Assembly (NCBI GenBank): GCA_018303115.1
Contig: JAGVYT010000028.1
Coordinates: 1 to 33,233, forward strand
Source: Candidatus Woesearchaeota archaeon
Lineage (GTDB): Archaea; Nanobdellota; Nanobdellia; Woesearchaeales; UBA10216
Length of the DNA: 33,233 nt
Direction: 5' to 3'
The notes under the pieces were generated by a model, which worked only from the letters and a program-made list of their open reading frames with translations, was not told where the DNA came from and did not search any database. Numbering within the stretch: the stretch's first letter is position 1; the number at the start of each line of letters is the position of its first letter. Positions 3,988 through 29,976 of this stretch are shown piece after piece. Made by a program: the position numbers and the translations under genes.

Positions 3988-5288
3988 TTTTTTCTTCTTG
4001 CCAGGAAATAGTAAAGAACAGCACCAATACCCGTAACTACCACCGCCATCCACAGGACTTTCTTGTATCTCGGAAGCTTGTTTTTCCAGCAGTCAATGAG
4101 CATGAAGATAACAAATGCAGCAACCACTATCTGAATCCCGAGTTTCACAAAAACAAAAAGCATGTTCTGCTGGCTGCTAACCAAACCGAACCTTTTAGCA
4201 TCTGATTTAGAGTAAAGGCGCAGCCCAACCACCTCCTCTTTTACCGTTTCCATATTAAGAGCGTCCTTGTAAGTAAAGCGAACCCTGAGGTTCACGTCTT
4301 TTGGCCTTGTTTTTGCTGTCCTGATATCAAATTCAACAGTTTCAAGGTCATCAGCCTCAAGATTGCCAACATAAACCCTTGGCGAAGAAAGCACCTTGTA
4401 ATCACCAGTTTCAATGAGCTCTACATTCACGAATCTTATATCGCTAGGTCCTGTGTTTGAAATGCTTAACACAACCTCCCCGTTTGAGCCAGAGGTGGAC
4501 ACCTTTGTTTCCTTAAGGGCGAGAGTGAACTCAGGCTTGTCATAAACAAGCAGACCAATTGTAGAATTCTTTACATACGAGTTCCCTGAATCGTCAAGGT
4601 ATTTAAGCACAACATCGGTTTTGTAATAGCCCGAGTCTGCATCAGCGTCTGCAACCAGCTGAAATTCTGCTTTGGCAAGCTCACCCGGCAAAATGCCGCT
4701 TATAACCTTCTCATTTGAAGTTCCTGCAGGGGAGAAGGGAATGCTGTTTAAATTAACGCTTACCCTCACCTCTTTAACCAGAGACTTGCCGAAATTCCTG
4801 ACCAAAAGCATAACGCCTGCAGTATTGCCTGCGCTGAAACCCCCCGACTCCACAGACTCAATTCCGAGTATTGCCTCAGCAGCTTCAACATTCACCTCAA
4901 AAGATTGCCTCACCCAGCTGCCTTTGCCAACCCTGTAGCGAAGATAAATCGGATAAGCGCCTTCATCAGCGTCTTTGTCAACGCTTACCTTATACTTGAC
5001 AACAACAGCATCCGCCCCTTTTTGGCTTGCATCAAGGCTGCCTATATTCTTTATAGCAGGCTCTGAAAAGATGAAAGGGTATTTTGGAAGCAGCTCAACC
5101 TCAACAGTGTCAATAGTTCCTGATATGTTGTTGTCAATCCTGAAGCGAAGCTCAACATCATCACCAGGCTCAACAGGGTCAGGGTTCTGGTTTATCAGTT
5201 TCGGGCTTATCTGCACGCCCTTGACCTCAGCAGACGCACTGGCTGCCAGCAAACACAGCACAACTAAAAAAATCAGCGCAGCCCTCAT
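3984..5288 (-). CDS. Secreted S-layer/CARDB-like protein with C-terminal membrane anchor
   Basis: A 434-aa protein. Residues 1-20 (ALIFLVVLCLLAASASA) form a clear signal peptide. The body consists of beta-rich repeats typical of the archaeal COG1361 'S-layer domain' proteins and CARDB/NEW3-like folds: EPGDDVELRFRIDN near the N-terminus, GNTAGVMLLVRNFGKS in the middle, GSNGEVVLSISNTGPSDI further on. The C-terminus carries two membrane segments (about 375-397 and 409-428) and a basic tail ARRKK. It lies between the ATPase and the permeases of one operon with ATGA overlaps on both sides, so it is probably the extracellular partner or substrate receptor of that transporter. COG1361 proteins beside MacB-like ABC genes are a recurring archaeal arrangement; the substrate is not known. 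Confidence 0.85.
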   Translation of the reverse strand: MRAALIFLVVLCLLAASASAEVKGVQISPKLINQNPDPVEPGDDVELRFRIDNNISGTIDTVEVELLPKYPFIFSEPAIKNIGSLDASQKGADAVVVKYKVSVDKDADEGAYPIYLRYRVGKGSWVRQSFEVNVEAAEAILGIESVESGGFSAGNTAGVMLLVRNFGKSLVKEVRVSVNLNSIPFSPAGTSNEKVISGILPGELAKAEFQLVADADADSGYYKTDVVLKYLDDSGNSYVKNSTIGLLVYDKPEFTLALKETKVSTSGSNGEVVLSISNTGPSDIRFVNVELIETGDYKVLSSPRVYVGNLEADDLETVEFDIRTAKTRPKDVNLRVRFTYKDALNMETVKEEVVGLRLYSKSDAKRFGLVSSQQNMLFVFVKLGIQIVVAAFVIFMLIDCWKNKLPRYKKVLWMAVVVTGIGAVLYYFLARRKK

Positions 5289-6781: not shown

Positions 6782-6826
6782 TAAGCTGGAAGTCGGGCTT
6801 CCAAAGGCGTTTTCGGAGAAGAACCT

Positions 6827-6928
6827 GTCAAGAACCACCAGTCAGAGACTGGTGGAATGTTGCAGTTAGTTACTGAAGTAGGTGGTTCTTGAGCACCTCA
6901 GAAACGTAGAAATTCCAAAGGAATTTCT
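6827..6928. repeat. Paired-hairpin repeat, copy A
   Basis: Read on plus: GTCAAGAACC at 6827-6836; AAGAACCACC (6830-6839) pairs with GGTGGTTCTT (6881-6890). TTGAGCACCTCAGAAACG then leads to the stem AGAAATTCC (6908-6916), loop AAA, GGAATTTCT (6920-6928). An inner 9-bp hairpin CCACCAGTC-AGA-GACTGGTGG (6835-6855) competes with the outer arm. The conserved framework (GTC, RAACC..GGTT, TGAGCA..CAGAAA, ..TTTCT) is shared with copies at 18973 and 28528. The second hairpin overlaps the last codons of the gene at 6898-7245. Confidence 0.6.
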
Positions 6929-7245
6929 TGTTCCAGAAATTCTCTATGGCCTTTTTTTACCGGCTTTTCGTGCTTTATTTCCTGTGCCACTTTTTTAAAC
7001 ATCTCTACTTGTTTCTCGGAGAGGTTGCCAAAACGAAGGTAGCTTGACTTTATGTTCCTCAAAAACCCTGATTTTTCATACAATGTTTTATCAATGTCAA
7101 ACAGCTTCTTGAATTTCCCGTCCTTAATAGGCCTGGCAATCTCCTTCATCTTGCACTTAACGCACACAGGATTTCGGTCCTTCCAAGTAACAATGGCATA
7201 ATCCTTCCTGCACACTATGCACTTCTGCTTGTAGGAATATCTCAT
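6898..7245 (-). CDS. Small zinc-ribbon protein of unknown function
   Basis: A 115-aa protein. Two CxxC pairs, CIVC at about 9-12 and CVKC at about 28-31, form a probable zinc ribbon at the N-terminus. The rest is a lysine-rich helical region (KKLFDIDKTLYEKSGFLRNI and later FGNLSEKQVEMFKKVAQEI). I do not recognise the family. The ATG overlaps the TGA of the SDR gene (ATGA at 7242-7245), so the two are translationally coupled and likely co-transcribed. The last codons are built from a perfect 9-bp hairpin that belongs to the paired-hairpin repeat, so the repeat appears to have supplied or replaced the C-terminal end. Confidence 0.75.
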   Translation of the reverse strand: MRYSYKQKCIVCRKDYAIVTWKDRNPVCVKCKMKEIARPIKDGKFKKLFDIDKTLYEKSGFLRNIKSSYLRFGNLSEKQVEMFKKVAQEIKHEKPVKKGHREFLEQEIPLEFLRF

Positions 7246-8126: not shown

Positions 8127-8192
8127 ATAGCCCCGGGCATATCCTCACTTGCGTTCGGGACGCCCAGGTCTATTCGCTTTGCTCATAGCCCC
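8127..8192. repeat. 66-bp direct repeat, left copy
   Basis: Identical base for base to 8950-9015. It starts with ATAGCCCCGGGC, which equals the 3' end of the tRNA-Gln gene read on the plus strand (9008-9019), and ends with a second partial copy, ATAGCCCC. Similarity stops sharply on both sides (T versus A before it, A versus G after it). Confidence 0.95.
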
Positions 8193-8230: not shown

Positions 8231-8563
8231 TCAAGCCACTCTGACTTCAAAACTGGACTCGTCCTCTCCTTTCAATATAAGACCACCACCCTTTTGAATG
8301 CTATAGAACTGGGCAAATTCCTTAGGTATCCTCACCATTAAGGCTTCTCCAAGCTTTCCGACCTTTACAGGAATTCCATGCCTTAGCTTGTTAAATATGA
8401 GCATTTTCTGGGCATCTTCAGAGTGCAGCACGGTCTCATTACATTTCGGGCATGCCCAAGCCCTGACAACCATTCCTTCAACTACCACTTTTGCCTTACC
8501 CATCTTGCAGTTATCATTCTGGCAAAAATGTTCTGCTTCCCAAATGTTACGCTTCATTTTCAT
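8231..8563 (-). CDS. Antitoxin-like protein: zinc finger plus AbrB-like domain
   Basis: A protein of about 110 aa. The N-terminal half has four cysteines in two pairs (CQNDNC and CPKC) like the zinc-binding domain of MqsA/YgiT-type antitoxins. The C-terminal half (VGKLGEALMVRIPKEFAQF, then GGGLILKGEDESSFEVRV) looks like a SpoVT/AbrB swapped-hairpin DNA-binding domain. I chose the ATG at 8563 because GGAGG lies about 6 bases before it and it overlaps the upstream stop (TGATG); a GTG three bases upstream is the alternative. It follows the DUF4258-like gene, the gene order of MqsR/MqsA-type and DUF4258/YgiT pairs. It probably neutralises its neighbour and represses the shared promoter; that role is inference from domain and context. 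Confidence 0.75.
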   Translation of the reverse strand: MKMKRNIWEAEHFCQNDNCKMGKAKVVVEGMVVRAWACPKCNETVLHSEDAQKMLIFNKLRHGIPVKVGKLGEALMVRIPKEFAQFYSIQKGGGLILKGEDESSFEVRVA

Positions 8564-8865
8564 CACTCCCTCCGCTTATGCTTCCTCGAATAAGTAAACT
8601 TGCCAACATGAATCAGCCTCCACACGTCCTCCTGAAAACCATCAAGGTACCTTACACTTGTTTGAGCAACAACAGTCTTAAAAACCTTATTTCCTTTCCT
8701 CAAGCACCGCTCAACTATTCCTTTCTTTCTTTTACCAGTGCCACAATCATAACCATCCTCAAGTATCTCCACAACATCGTTCAAATCTATGTTCTCAGAC
8801 ATTGATTCCCTGCAAGCTGCCAAAGTGATTTCAATTCTAAGGCCCTTATACCTGACGTCAAACAT
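8563..8865 (-). CDS. DUF4258-like putative toxin
   Basis: A compact 100-aa basic protein: MFDVRYKGLRIEITLAACRE, then DLNDVVEILEDGYDCGTGKRKKGIVERCL, then VFKTVVAQTSVRYLDGFQEDVWRLIHVGKF. An N-terminal helix, a 'VVEILEDGYD' turn and a final strand with a 'vWrlIHVG' pattern recall DUF4258/RelE-type small proteins, many of which are mRNA interferase toxins. The assignment is by overall pattern only. A good Shine-Dalgarno (GAGGGTG) lies about 8 bases before the ATG. It is the first gene of a two-gene operon with the zinc-finger/AbrB gene and sits behind a palindromic operator candidate. Confidence 0.65.
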   Translation of the reverse strand: MFDVRYKGLRIEITLAACRESMSENIDLNDVVEILEDGYDCGTGKRKKGIVERCLRKGNKVFKTVVAQTSVRYLDGFQEDVWRLIHVGKFTYSRKHKRRE

Positions 8866-8949: not shown

Positions 8950-9015
8950 ATAGCCCCGGGCATATCCTCACTTGCGTTCGGGACGCCCAGGTCTATTCGC
9001 TTTGCTCATAGCCCC
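8950..9015. repeat. 66-bp direct repeat, right copy
   Basis: Identical to 8127-8192. Its last 6 bases are inside the tRNA-Gln acceptor stem (tRNA minus strand, 9010-9110). Its first 12 bases repeat that same tRNA end 58 bp further away, so the tRNA 3' end is present as a full copy and as partial copies at 8950, 8185 and 8127. Confidence 0.95.
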
Positions 9016-9110
9016 GGGCGGATTCGAACCGCCGTCAACGGCTCCAAAGGCCGCTATGAGTCGGCTCTAAGTTAATTAATAGCTTAAATTTGCCACTACA
9101 CCACGGGGCT
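9009..9110 (-). tRNA. tRNA-Gln(UUG) with an insert/intron in the D-loop
   Basis: The minus strand gives a 7-bp acceptor stem AGCCCCG/CGGGGCT with discriminator A and no encoded CCA. The anticodon arm is GCGGC-CTTTGGA-GCCGT, anticodon TTG (Gln). The variable loop is TGAC, and the T-arm GGCGG-TTCGAAT-CCGCC. The 5' sequence GTGGTGTAGTGGC is typical of archaeal tRNA-Gln. Between AGTGGC and the D-stem 3' side (TCAT) there are about 28 extra nucleotides, AT-rich, containing TTTAAG...CTTAGA as a 6-bp stem. They are best explained as an intron in the D-loop at a non-canonical position; exact splice sites are not resolved. Removing about 28 nt leaves a normal 74-nt tRNA. Confidence 0.88.
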
Positions 9111-18956: not shown

Positions 18957-19078
18957 TGGGCCTGCCCGGATTGTCGCAGAACCGGAGGTTCTGGGACACC
19001 AGAAATCTCCGATTTCTCGTTCGAACCGGGGACATCAACCCTGTGAAGGTTGCGTCATAACCGCTAGACCACAGGCCC
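18957..19078 (-). tRNA. tRNA-Val(CAC) with a 49-nt insert/intron in the T-loop
   Basis: The minus strand gives acceptor GGGCCTG/CAGGCCC with discriminator A and no CCA. The D-arm is GTC..GAC with AGCGGTTA. The anticodon arm CAACC-TTCACAG-GGTTG has anticodon CAC (Val), and the variable loop is ATGTC. The T-stem CCCGG/CCGGG is intact, but its loop is 56 nt instead of 7: it starts TTCGAAC and ends AAT, so about 49 nt are extra. Removing them leaves a 73-nt tRNA. The insert consists almost entirely of two perfect 7-bp hairpins with 3-nt loops, a member of the paired-hairpin repeat family. A bulge-helix-bulge junction is not obvious, so whether it is spliced by the usual endonuclease is open. Confidence 0.88.
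18973..19018. repeat. Paired-hairpin repeat, copy B (inside tRNA-Val T-loop)
   Basis: Read on plus: GTCG, then stem CAGAACC-GGA-GGTTCTG (18977-18993), spacer GGACACC, then stem AGAAATC-TCC-GATTTCT (19001-19017). The order GTC, AACC..GGTT, spacer, CAGAAA..TTTCT is the same as in copies A and C, with the variable bases inside the stems changed in a compensating way. It fills the insert of the tRNA-Val gene. Confidence 0.6.
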
Positions 19079-27221: not shown

Positions 27222-27234
27222 TTTGGTGTTTGGA

Positions 27235-27501
27235 ATGCTGATTAAAAGGAAGGTCGGGGAGCGAGGCCAGGTTGTGCTGCCGAAGGACATAAGGGTGCAG
27301 CTCGGCATATTGACCGGCAGTGAAATAACTTTTGAAGCCAAAGAGGGCGAAGTTGTAGTGAAACCTGCAATGTCACCGGAAGAATTTGTTGAGGAGTTCT
27401 GCAGAACCAGCAAAAAAATAAAAATGAAAGACGGCGTCAAATGGCTAAAAAAGGTTCTTGATGAACAGTATGAGGAAGAATATGGTTTACATAGACGCTA
27501 A
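27235..27501 (+). CDS. vapB: AbrB-type antitoxin (VapB-like)
   Basis: An 88-aa protein. The N-terminal MLIKRKVGERGQVVLPKDIR, then LGILTGSEITFEAKEGEVVV, is a SpoVT/AbrB swapped-hairpin DNA-binding domain. The C-terminal tail (MSPEEFVEEFCRTSKKIKM, then a helix ending EEEYGLHRR) is the toxin-binding part. I chose ATG 27235; the frame is open to a TTG at 27223 but the domain begins at MLIKRK. It lies directly downstream of a triple half-site operator and overlaps the PIN-domain toxin gene by 20 bp. Expected role: neutralise the toxin and repress the operon. Confidence 0.88.
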   Translation: MLIKRKVGERGQVVLPKDIRVQLGILTGSEITFEAKEGEVVVKPAMSPEEFVEEFCRTSKKIKMKDGVKWLKKVLDEQYEEEYGLHRR

Positions 27502-27901
27502 TGTTTTTGTGCAAGCTGTATTGAGGGACGAGTCTGAGATAGCTGCCTCTTATGCCAAGTCAGTTCTAAGAAAAATTGCTGAAAGGGACTTAACGGCTTC
27601 TACAACTGTTCTAACATGGGATGAGCTGGTTTGGGCGTGCAGGAAAGCTATGACCTTTGAAGATGCTTTGGAAAAAGGAAAAATGTTGCTCAAAACCGGA
27701 AACCTTACATTAGAGGACGCGACAAAAAGTGTGATTAATAAGGCTTCAGAACTGGCAGAAAAGTATGGAATAAAACCCCGTGATGCCATTCATGCAGCAA
27801 CAGCAATACTCGGCAATGAAAAAGAAATAATAAGCGATGACGCTGATTTTGACAGGGTGAAGGAGTTAAAGCGTATAACGCTTGCTAAAGCCTCCAGATA
27901 G
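27482..27901 (+). CDS. vapC: PIN-domain toxin (VapC-like ribonuclease)
   Basis: A PIN-domain protein of about 139 aa. The acidic metal-binding residues are Asp in MVYIDANVF (residue 5), Glu in TWDELVWA, Asp in IKPRDAIHAATA, and Asp in EIISDDADFDRV, giving a complete active site for a Mg-dependent RNase. I chose the ATG at 27482 over 27458 because the domain starts at MVYIDANVF and GAGGAAG precedes it. It overlaps the VapB gene by 20 bp, as expected for coupled translation. VapC enzymes usually cleave tRNA or rRNA. Its stop abuts the 3' end of the convergent channel-like gene at 27902. Confidence 0.92.
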   Translation: MVYIDANVFVQAVLRDESEIAASYAKSVLRKIAERDLTASTTVLTWDELVWACRKAMTFEDALEKGKMLLKTGNLTLEDATKSVINKASELAEKYGIKPRDAIHAATAILGNEKEIISDDADFDRVKELKRITLAKASR

Positions 27902-28482: not shown

Positions 28483-28527
28483 TGCCTCTTTTTTAAACTT
28501 AAATCCGTTTTCCACTATTTAAATTTT

Positions 28528-28580
28528 GTCAAAACCGTTGCGGTTTTGAGCATGCTCAGAAACGCATTAGCGTTTCTGAC
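28528..28580. repeat. Paired-hairpin repeat, copy C (at cysS 3' end)
   Basis: Read on plus: GTC, stem AAAACCG-TTG-CGGTTTT (28531-28547), 10-bp palindrome GAGCATGCTC (28548-28557), then stem CAGAAACGC-ATTA-GCGTTTCTG (28557-28578), AC. TTTTGAGCATGCTCAGAAACG is nearly the same as the spacer of copy A. The cysS stop codon lies in the loop of the last stem, so the repeat forms the end of that gene and its 3' UTR. Confidence 0.65.
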
Positions 28581-29976
28581 ATTTCCATTTGACTCCCCCA
28601 CTGGTGTCGTCAAGCTGTATTCCCTGCTTCTTTAATTCAGCCCTTATTTTGTCTGCTCCTGCAAAATTGCCTTCTTTCCTAAGTGCTTCACGTTTTTGTA
28701 TCAGCTGCAGCTGTTCCTGTGTTACGGTTTCTTTCGCTTCAAAATCAATTACTGCCAGCACTTCATTAAAATCTTCCAGCAGTTCCAGCACGTTATCTGC
28801 GTCAAACCTGCTTATGCCGTTTTCCATGCTTTTGTTTATGTCGCGTGCAAAGTCAAACACCACTGCAAGCGCCTCGCTCACGTTCAAATCGTCATCCATG
28901 GCACCCTCAAAATCCCTCTTGGCTTTTGATATGAGCAGCGTAACCTCTTCGTCTGTCTTCCCTGCTTTCTCACCCTTCAGGTTTCTTACAAGCTCCTGCA
29001 GCCGCTCAACTGACTTGGCAGCAGCGTCCAGCCCCTTGAATGTGAAGTTCAGCTGCTGCCTGTAATGGGTTGCAAGCAGCAGGTAGCGTATCGCTTCGCT
29101 ACTGTAGCCTTTTTTCAAAATGCCTCTCAAAGTATAAAAGTTGCCCAGAGATTTAGACATCTTTTGCCCTTCCACAAGCAGCCACTCGTTATGCAGCCAG
29201 TGCTTCACAAACCTTTTTCCTGTGCTGGCTTCGCTTTGAGCAATCTCGTTCTGATGATGGGGGAATATTAAATCGACGCCTCCGCAGTGTATGTCAAAAG
29301 TCTCGCCAAGATATTTCATCGACATAGCGCTGCACTCAAGGTGCCATCCAGGCCTGCCCCTGCCAAACTCTGTCTCCCAGAACACACTGCCGTCTTCCGG
29401 GCGGTATGCTTTCCATAATGCAAAGTCGTGAACATTCTCCTTTGAATACTCGTCAGCCGTTATTCTTCCGGAAGCTCCAGTCTTAAGCTTTTTTAAGTTC
29501 AGTTTTGCAAGTTTCCCGTAATCACCAAATTTGGTGATATTAAAGTAAACACTGCCGTCTGCTGCCTTATACGCAATGCCTTTCTTAAGCAGCTTCTTCA
29601 CAAGCCTTACCATGTCATCAATATGCTCCGTGGCCCTGCAGAATTTGTCTGCAGGCAGTATGCCAAGCGCTTCCAGGTCCTCAAAAAAGGCAGTTTCATA
29701 CTTTTTCGTAAACTGCCTGAGTGAGGTTTTCTGCTTCCTCGCCCCTTTGATGGTTTTGTCGTCAACGTCTGTTATGTTCATAACATGCCTTACTGCATAG
29801 CCCCTCAGTCTAAGATATCTCTTGAGAATATCGCTTACCATGTAAGCCCTGTAATTGCCTATGTGGGGATAGTCGTAAACGGTTGGCCCGCAGGTGTACA
29901 TCCTGATTACGTTACCTCTCAAAGGCTTTAGAACCTCTTTCTTTCTGATTAAGGTGTTATAAAACCTTATCGCCAT
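28567..29976 (-). CDS. cysS: Cysteinyl-tRNA synthetase
   Basis: A 469-aa class I synthetase that charges tRNA-Cys. CGPTVYDYPHIGNYRAYMVS holds the zinc Cys and the HIGN motif (38-41). GRPGWHLECSAMSMKYLGE, then DIHCGGVDLIFPHHQNEIAQ, carry the other zinc ligands; GQKMSKSLGNFYTL (about 265-278) is the KMSKS loop. The C-terminal helical domain ends in GIQLDDTSGGVKWKCQKR. The length is normal. TATA TTTTAAAAG at 30001-30008, about 28 bp before the ATG, supports the start and a leaderless mRNA. The stop codon lies inside a paired-hairpin repeat. Confidence 0.96.
   Translation of the reverse strand: MAIRFYNTLIRKKEVLKPLRGNVIRMYTCGPTVYDYPHIGNYRAYMVSDILKRYLRLRGYAVRHVMNITDVDDKTIKGARKQKTSLRQFTKKYETAFFEDLEALGILPADKFCRATEHIDDMVRLVKKLLKKGIAYKAADGSVYFNITKFGDYGKLAKLNLKKLKTGASGRITADEYSKENVHDFALWKAYRPEDGSVFWETEFGRGRPGWHLECSAMSMKYLGETFDIHCGGVDLIFPHHQNEIAQSEASTGKRFVKHWLHNEWLLVEGQKMSKSLGNFYTLRGILKKGYSSEAIRYLLLATHYRQQLNFTFKGLDAAAKSVERLQELVRNLKGEKAGKTDEEVTLLISKAKRDFEGAMDDDLNVSEALAVVFDFARDINKSMENGISRFDADNVLELLEDFNEVLAVIDFEAKETVTQEQLQLIQKREALRKEGNFAGADKIRAELKKQGIQLDDTSGGVKWKCQKR

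Follow-up and report, generated by a model that had tools for sequence, protein, structure and literature searches.

A mobile T-loop intron in the tRNA-Val(CAC) gene of a Woesearchaeales archaeon and its possible kinship to a dispersed hairpin repeat

The stretch of Woesearchaeales DNA studied here, called the window (33,233 nucleotides), carries on its minus strand at 18957..19078 an interrupted tRNA-Val(CAC) gene of 122 nt, with a predicted mature product of 73 nt by sequence reading and by ARAGORN on the spliced form. The window is contig 20 of an assembly whose alanyl-tRNA synthetase has its nearest matches in Candidatus Woesearchaeota genomes (best match 68%). Read from 19078 to 18957, the minus strand runs GGGCCTG..(TTCACAG, anticodon CAC)..CCCGG-TTCGAA-[49 nt]-T-CCGGG-CAGGCCC-A. 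The 5' exon (19020..19078, minus strand), where the 5' half matches tRNA-Val of relatives, holds the acceptor 5' strand, the D arm, the anticodon arm (CAC), the T-stem 5' strand, and T-loop bases 54-59 (TTCGAA). The 3' exon (18957..18970, minus strand) supplies base 60 (T), the T-stem 3' strand CCGGG, the acceptor 3' strand CAGGCCC, and the discriminator A. Between the two, at position 59/60, lies an intron of 49 nt (18971..19019, minus strand), CGAGAAATCGGAGATTTCTGGTGTCCCAGAACCTCCGGTTCTGCGACAA, and the same 49 nt are found in a tRNA-Gln of the sister species G018. The acceptor stem is paired at 7/7 positions and the T-stem at 5/5, which bears out the description of the stems as intact in the first-pass annotation of this DNA. 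Its coordinates for the gene, its 49-nt T-loop insert, and its assignment to tRNA-Val(CAC) likewise hold when the minus strand is read and the spliced form is given to ARAGORN.

In its interrupted form the gene escapes common search tools. Neither ARAGORN nor the Rfam tRNA model at its gathering score finds it in the window, and a loose Rfam threshold yields only a truncated 57-nt match at 21 bits. Once the 49 nt (19019-18971) are taken out, ARAGORN calls a tRNA-Val(CAC) of 73 nt. The earlier assignment of the insert to T-loop introns named the right class. The spliced tRNA is identical to the intronless tRNA-Val(CAC) of two relatives at 65/73 and 63/73 positions, and the 122-nt precursor RNA has a better fold than shuffled versions of it (z = -3.3; 1/200 shuffles as good).

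The first-pass annotation could draw no clear bulge-helix-bulge (BHB) motif at the junction. One can in fact be drawn, with a single central-helix mismatch (T54.C), and its geometry is common to every readable 59/60 intron of this genome. The T-stem forms an outer helix of 5 bp, and two 3-nt bulges flank a central helix in which T-loop bases 54-57 (TTCG; 19022..19025, minus strand) lie opposite intron positions -6 to -3 (CGAC; 18973..18976, minus strand), giving three Watson-Crick pairs in addition to the mismatch opposite T54. By this geometry the predicted 5' splice site lies in the bulge AA^C (19019..19021) and the predicted 3' splice site in the bulge AA^T (18970..18972), both on the minus strand. 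Cuts within both bulges would join TTCGAA to T60 and so restore the T-loop TTCGAAT and the 73-nt tRNA.

The pairing of exon with intron is a shared property of these introns. In the first 15 introns at 59/60 read in this genome, exon bases 54-57 make on average 3.73 of 4 Watson-Crick pairs with intron positions -6..-3, against 1.73 or fewer at other offsets, and in 100,000 random reorderings of the intron letters the observed pairing total was never reached. A G at base 57 is matched by C in the intron, with two exceptions (T and A), and an A at base 57 by T. The same column covaries across 27 relatives of the Val intron, in which the base-57 pair is AU in 14, GC in 8, and other or unpaired in 5. 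This exon-intron covariation at base 57 is direct. At the central-helix position of T54.C, 11/27 family members are mismatched.

Within the insert, two short hairpins can be drawn, AGAAATC-GGA-GATTTCT (19001..19017, minus strand) and CAGAACC-TCC-GGTTCTG (18977..18993, minus strand), each with a perfect 7-bp stem and a 3-nt loop, separated by 7 nt. Perfect hairpins of this form are few in the whole 33-kb window. The pair had been noted before, and we confirm it at plus-strand positions 18977-18993 and 19001-19017. Alternatively, the insert folds as a single long imperfect hairpin, at -16.5 kcal/mol versus -13.4 kcal/mol for the two hairpins when the insert's own helices are counted, and the pairs specific to the long hairpin change in compensated fashion among relatives. 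Overall covariation scores (0.378 for the one-hairpin fold, 0.373 for the two-hairpin fold) cannot choose between them because the four strands covary together; in the loop columns only, covariation favors the long hairpin. The insert is therefore one long hairpin or two short ones, with the energies and the compensated loop columns favoring the former.

Introns of the same geometry at 59/60 occur in at least 16 of the about 36 tRNA genes that could be read in this genome, at lengths from 12 to 91 nt, in an inventory built from covariance matches and incomplete. Their hosts include Val CAC, Tyr, Gln CTG, Arg TCG/CCT/TCT/GCG, Gly TCC, Asp, Lys TTT, Ile TAT, Trp, and Pro CGG, among others; the sixteenth is that of tRNA-Arg(GCG), which joins the 15 covered by the pairing statistics above. 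The site itself is a known intron position in archaea (PMC4090602). The earlier view that T-loop introns are rare outside Thermoproteales is not supported, as they are common in this genome and its family and are found in other orders of the class as well, where short 59/60 introns also interrupt tRNAs (30 pattern loci were read, and 25 were real interrupted tRNAs). Phylum-wide, the 59/60 pattern gave about 115 matches among those listed versus about 92 for a reversed-pattern control; the pattern finds true cases but is unusable as a census. A separate observation concerns the anticodon loop: the introns there of the adjoining tRNA-Pro(CGG) and tRNA-Leu(CAG) genes (L029, G000:C42, where G000 is this genome) both hold GGCGnCGAGCAGCGAGCTGCTGAGGTTTC, which was apparently exchanged between the two.

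The candidate splicing enzyme is encoded by one PF01974 gene in the genome (EndA; 96.6 bits, 175 aa), which matches solved EndA chains. Aligned to the M. jannaschii enzyme, it has no counterpart of the loop insertion of broad-specificity enzymes, and from its sequence it looks like the single-subunit type. Among PDB chains, the nearest to it comes from the N. equitans enzyme, which acts as a heteromer, and a diverged second subunit is conceivable. The class of the M. jannaschii enzyme has been described as narrow, and narrow enzymes as inefficient in removing relaxed motifs (PMC6379350). An EndA lacking the loop insertion agrees with the almost strict geometry seen in nearly every intron of the genome, and makes the T54.C mismatch of the Val intron family the one point where splicing could be inefficient.

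This imperfect central helix might be taken to mean that a repeat insertion has destroyed the tRNA gene and that no splicing takes place, particularly as the same genome has a tRNA-Val(TAC) that might read the same codon by wobble. We consider such an outcome improbable. All stems are intact, and the BHB is placed exactly so as to restore TTCGAAT. Moreover, the check for another tRNA-Val(CAC) proposed in the first-pass annotation found no second gene in the 0.99-Mb assembly (96% complete), leaving this as the only one found, and the same intron type occurs in essential tRNAs such as Tyr. The pseudogene reading is thus disfavored. A still more remote idea is that the insert is what remains of a self-splicing group I or II intron. 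Group I introns do occur in archaeal rRNA genes, including those of Woesearchaeota, but the archaeal examples of that report all lie in rRNA (PMC6125680). A group I/II remnant is ruled out here by the insert's length of only 49 nt, its lack of a catalytic core, the lack of an Rfam match in the window, and the presence of the BHB.

The Val intron is mobile, in that the same intron occupies different tRNAs while orthologous sites are empty. It is identical at 49/49 positions to the intron of tRNA-Gln(TTG) in the sister species G018 (GGCGG-TTCGAA-[49 nt]-T-CCGCC), and the identical stretch shared by the Val gene of this genome and that Gln gene spans 62 nt, includes the whole intron, and ends in the inner T-stem. 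The counterpart tRNA-Gln(TTG) in the window (9009..9110, minus strand) has an empty T-loop, GGCGG TTCGAAT CCGCC. Homologues of the intron at 88% identity lie in tRNA-Tyr and tRNA-Ile(TAT) of another sister species, G017, and a further homologue lies in tRNA-Tyr of this genome; the tRNA-Val(CAC) of G017 is an empty site. Across the family, several genomes have an empty tRNA-Val(CAC), and in G005 and G001 this gene carries unrelated 59/60 introns of 11 nt and 27 nt, respectively; the same site of tRNA-Ile(TAT) holds a 13-nt intron in this genome versus a double-hairpin intron in G017. A covariance model of the Val intron finds relatives in 46/353 genomes of the order. After splicing, the hosts of this intron family include Val, Tyr, Asn, Ile, Ser, Cys, Gly, and Gln tRNAs; among matches of the same kind, some sit in tRNA D-loops or anticodon loops and others lie outside any tRNA.

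Some of these genes have features of their own. The tRNA-Gln(TTG) at window positions 9009-9110 (minus strand) appears to carry an interruption in its D-loop region, and ARAGORN does not find it when run without intron options. Exact direct repeats of 66 nt (window 8127-8192 and 8950-9015) include its 3' end and flank two small ORFs (8231-8566 and 8563-8865) for which Pfam gives no clear family; the unit looks like a small element integrated at the end of tRNA-Gln(TTG). In G005, the 11-nt T-loop intron of tRNA-Val(CAC) (L039), ACCTGCGAAAG, has a full central helix and no inner helix.

The explanation we hold to be very probable is that this tRNA-Val(CAC) gene is functional and contains a mobile, non-canonical archaeal 59/60 intron that is spliced by EndA; its cleavage, its ligation, and its route of movement are what we infer. 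The 122-nt precursor would be transcribed and would fold with the T-stem as outer helix and bases 54-57 paired to intron positions -6 to -3 as central helix, so that the two 3-nt bulges could offer splice sites to EndA. The enzyme would cut after A59 and after intron base 49, and ligation of the exons would give a 73-nt tRNA with the T-loop TTCGAAT and release the 49-nt intron. Given that the family moves between T-loops of different tRNA genes in Woesearchaeales, the Val intron is probably a recent and dispensable passenger.

How such an intron moves allows for more than one account. It may spread by recombination or gene conversion between near-identical T-arms, with no inserting element at all. 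Most tRNAs have much the same T-loop and inner T-stem, the 62 nt common to the Val and G018 Gln genes end in the inner T-stem, and many different introns sit exactly at 59/60, all of which speaks for exchange between T-arms. Nevertheless, the flanking homology is very short, and exchange of this kind leaves unexplained why the same double-hairpin type is found in D-loops, in anticodon loops, and outside tRNAs. We regard it as a rather unlikely route.

The sequences outside tRNAs lead to a second account. At 28526..28582 the window holds a dispersed double-hairpin repeat, TGTCAAAACCGTTGCGGTTTTGAGCATGCTCAGAAACGCATTAGCGTTTCTGACA, with no strand assigned, which is a possible relative of the Val insert and probably the other hairpin copy to which the first-pass annotation had compared it. 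A pattern drawn from this repeat has 37 matches in the genome versus 0 for a reversed control, and a model of the repeat has 98 genome matches at E<=1, both strands and overlaps counted, which amounts to dozens of sites. The consensus reads TGTCAGAAnnn..nnnTTCTGAGCATGCTCAGAAnnn..nnnTTCTGACA, with compensated changes in the arms and a palindromic spacer, GAGCATGCTC. Among the sites listed, 5/23 lie within an ORF of >=110 aa, whereas 79% of positions drawn at random from these loci do so. The repeat is present in 146/353 genomes of the order (E<=1e-5) and has no match in Rfam. A longer hairpin repeat lies at window 6826-6946 (AAGAACCACCAGTC...GGTGGTTCTTGAGCACCTCAGAAACG); a 60-nt part of it is found again at G000:C13:9620, fused to half of a standard double hairpin, and the repeats are therefore composite. 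An ordinary toxin-antitoxin pair also lies in the window, at 27223-27901, where a gene for a MazE-like antitoxin precedes one for a PIN-domain protein.

The clearest meeting of repeat and intron is in the tRNA-Arg(GCG) gene of the same genome (L192 1343-1570, minus strand; G000:C2 about 4850-5080), which has two repeat-type introns, a double hairpin at 37/38 and a multi-hairpin at 59/60. Removal of both introns leaves a clean 74-nt tRNA, and the 37/38 junction forms a complete BHB (TTGC/GCAG, GG^A, AA^A). We compared introns with repeats by means of models R1, built from T-loop introns; R2, whose training set included the Arg(GCG) intron copy, so that an R2 match there is circular; and R3, built from nine repeat copies outside tRNAs (no tRNA overlaps them), with the Arg(GCG) intron copy left out. 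R3 scores the 37/38 intron of tRNA-Arg(GCG) at 56.6 bits (E 2.9e-13). The 91-nt T-loop intron of this tRNA shares 88% identity across 57 nt with an intergenic repeat next to tRNA-Leu(TAA) (E 2.4e-12 genome-wide) and 83% identity with the T-loop intron of tRNA-Trp. Because the 37/38 intron is a clear copy of the repeat and the T-loop intron matches an intergenic repeat, dispersed hairpin repeats and tRNA introns are, judged by sequence, the same material in at least two cases in this genome. The multi-hairpin repeat, which makes up the T-loop introns of tRNA-Arg(GCG) and tRNA-Trp, has two intergenic copies downstream of tRNA-Leu(TAA) (L013 1650-1815, G000:C27).

For the Val intron, the corresponding matches are suggestive of kinship to the dispersed repeat. 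R3 scores it at 21.0 bits (E 0.002 in 109 kb), R2 matches it at E 0.02 genome-wide, and R1 finds a dispersed copy in this genome at E 8.7e-5, all with E-values calibrated on random sequence and not on hairpins; BLAST aligns intron and repeat at 79% over 43 nt. R3 does not find the related Tyr intron of the same genome. The link to a hairpin repeat drawn in the first-pass annotation is accordingly clear for the 37/38 intron of Arg(GCG) and suggestive for the Val intron itself. Its further claim, that the insert is a repeat copy rather than a plain intron, sets up a false opposition: the insert can be both.

It is tempting to view the Val intron as a domesticated copy of the double-hairpin repeat, on the premise that short palindromes insert into tRNA genes and persist only where their ends permit BHB splicing. 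This reading extends our preferred explanation and does not oppose it. An intact copy in the Arg(GCG) 37/38 intron, the Arg(GCG) T-loop intron that resembles an intergenic repeat, and the results of R1, R2, R3, and BLAST for the Val intron all speak for it. The Val scores are modest, however, with E-values uncalibrated for hairpin-rich sequence; the spacer and ends of the Val intron are unlike the dispersed consensus; the miss of the Tyr intron by R3 also counts against it; and no transposase or target-site duplication was identified for the repeat. The direction could also be the reverse, with introns giving rise to intergenic copies. On balance, we give domestication of a repeat at the Val locus an even chance.

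A broader proposal, to which we give somewhat less than an even chance, is that Woesearchaeales introns at 59/60 and 37/38, and probably those in D-loops as well, arise from small non-autonomous palindromic repeats whose ends complete a BHB, so that the inserted copies are spliced out and tolerated. If this is true, archaea would gain tRNA introns by domesticating transposable elements, and present-day genomes would show the source copies alongside filled and empty sites. All this is relevant to the still open origin of archaeal tRNA introns. Within a single genus, one intron can be seen in several tRNAs, together with the corresponding empty sites and fast turnover at a single site, and the high-copy repeat itself makes up the intron in one tRNA gene of the same genome.

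The site 59/60, the BHB motif, and the transposition of introns in Thermoproteales are already known, the last from a 2010 study as relayed in later papers (PMC4090602, PMC4033280). As far as the literature was searched, what appears undescribed is the lineage, the density of T-loop introns, the filled and empty pairs in sister species, and above all a dispersed repeat as a tRNA intron; the search, which covered openly readable papers, found none on tRNA introns of Woesearchaeota. There is also a practical side. Finders of tRNAs miss such genes, as ARAGORN and Rfam did with this one, and the non-canonical intron models of tRNAscan-SE 2.0 were trained on introns of Crenarchaeota/Euryarchaeota and Thaumarchaeota (PMC8450103), so that tRNAs present in DPANN genomes may be recorded as missing.

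In its form, the Woesearchaeales repeat resembles by analogy the double-hairpin elements of mitochondria and the REP/BIME elements of bacteria, which are likewise short, high-copy, and mostly intergenic, with two adjacent hairpins and compensatory changes in the arms. No sequence link to either was seen, and we know of no report of mitochondrial double-hairpin or REP/BIME elements acting as spliced tRNA introns.

The Val intron shares with known archaeal non-canonical BHB introns (PMC4090602, PMC6379350) the site 59/60, the 3-nt bulges around a short central helix, and the exact restoration of the T-loop, and in both settings some tRNA genes have multiple introns. It differs in that one central-helix mismatch is common in its family, unlike in the known archaeal BHB introns at 59/60, and in that the known hot spots are Crenarchaeota, Thaumarchaeota, and Nanoarchaeum, whereas the host here is a member of Woesearchaeales with an apparently single-subunit EndA. 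The transposed introns of Thermoproteales, to the extent that they are described in the later papers, offer the closest parallel for mobility, with nearly the same introns in tRNAs of different identity and orthologous tRNAs with or without introns; here the lineage is another one, most family members sit in the T-loop, and related sequences are also found outside tRNA genes. Finally, intron gain has been tied to mobile DNA in Caldiarchaeum subterraneum as well (PMC3293823). There, a 1.8-kb element with a recombinase adjoins the tRNA, whereas in the tRNA-Arg(GCG) described here a palindromic repeat of ~50 bp itself forms the body of the intron.
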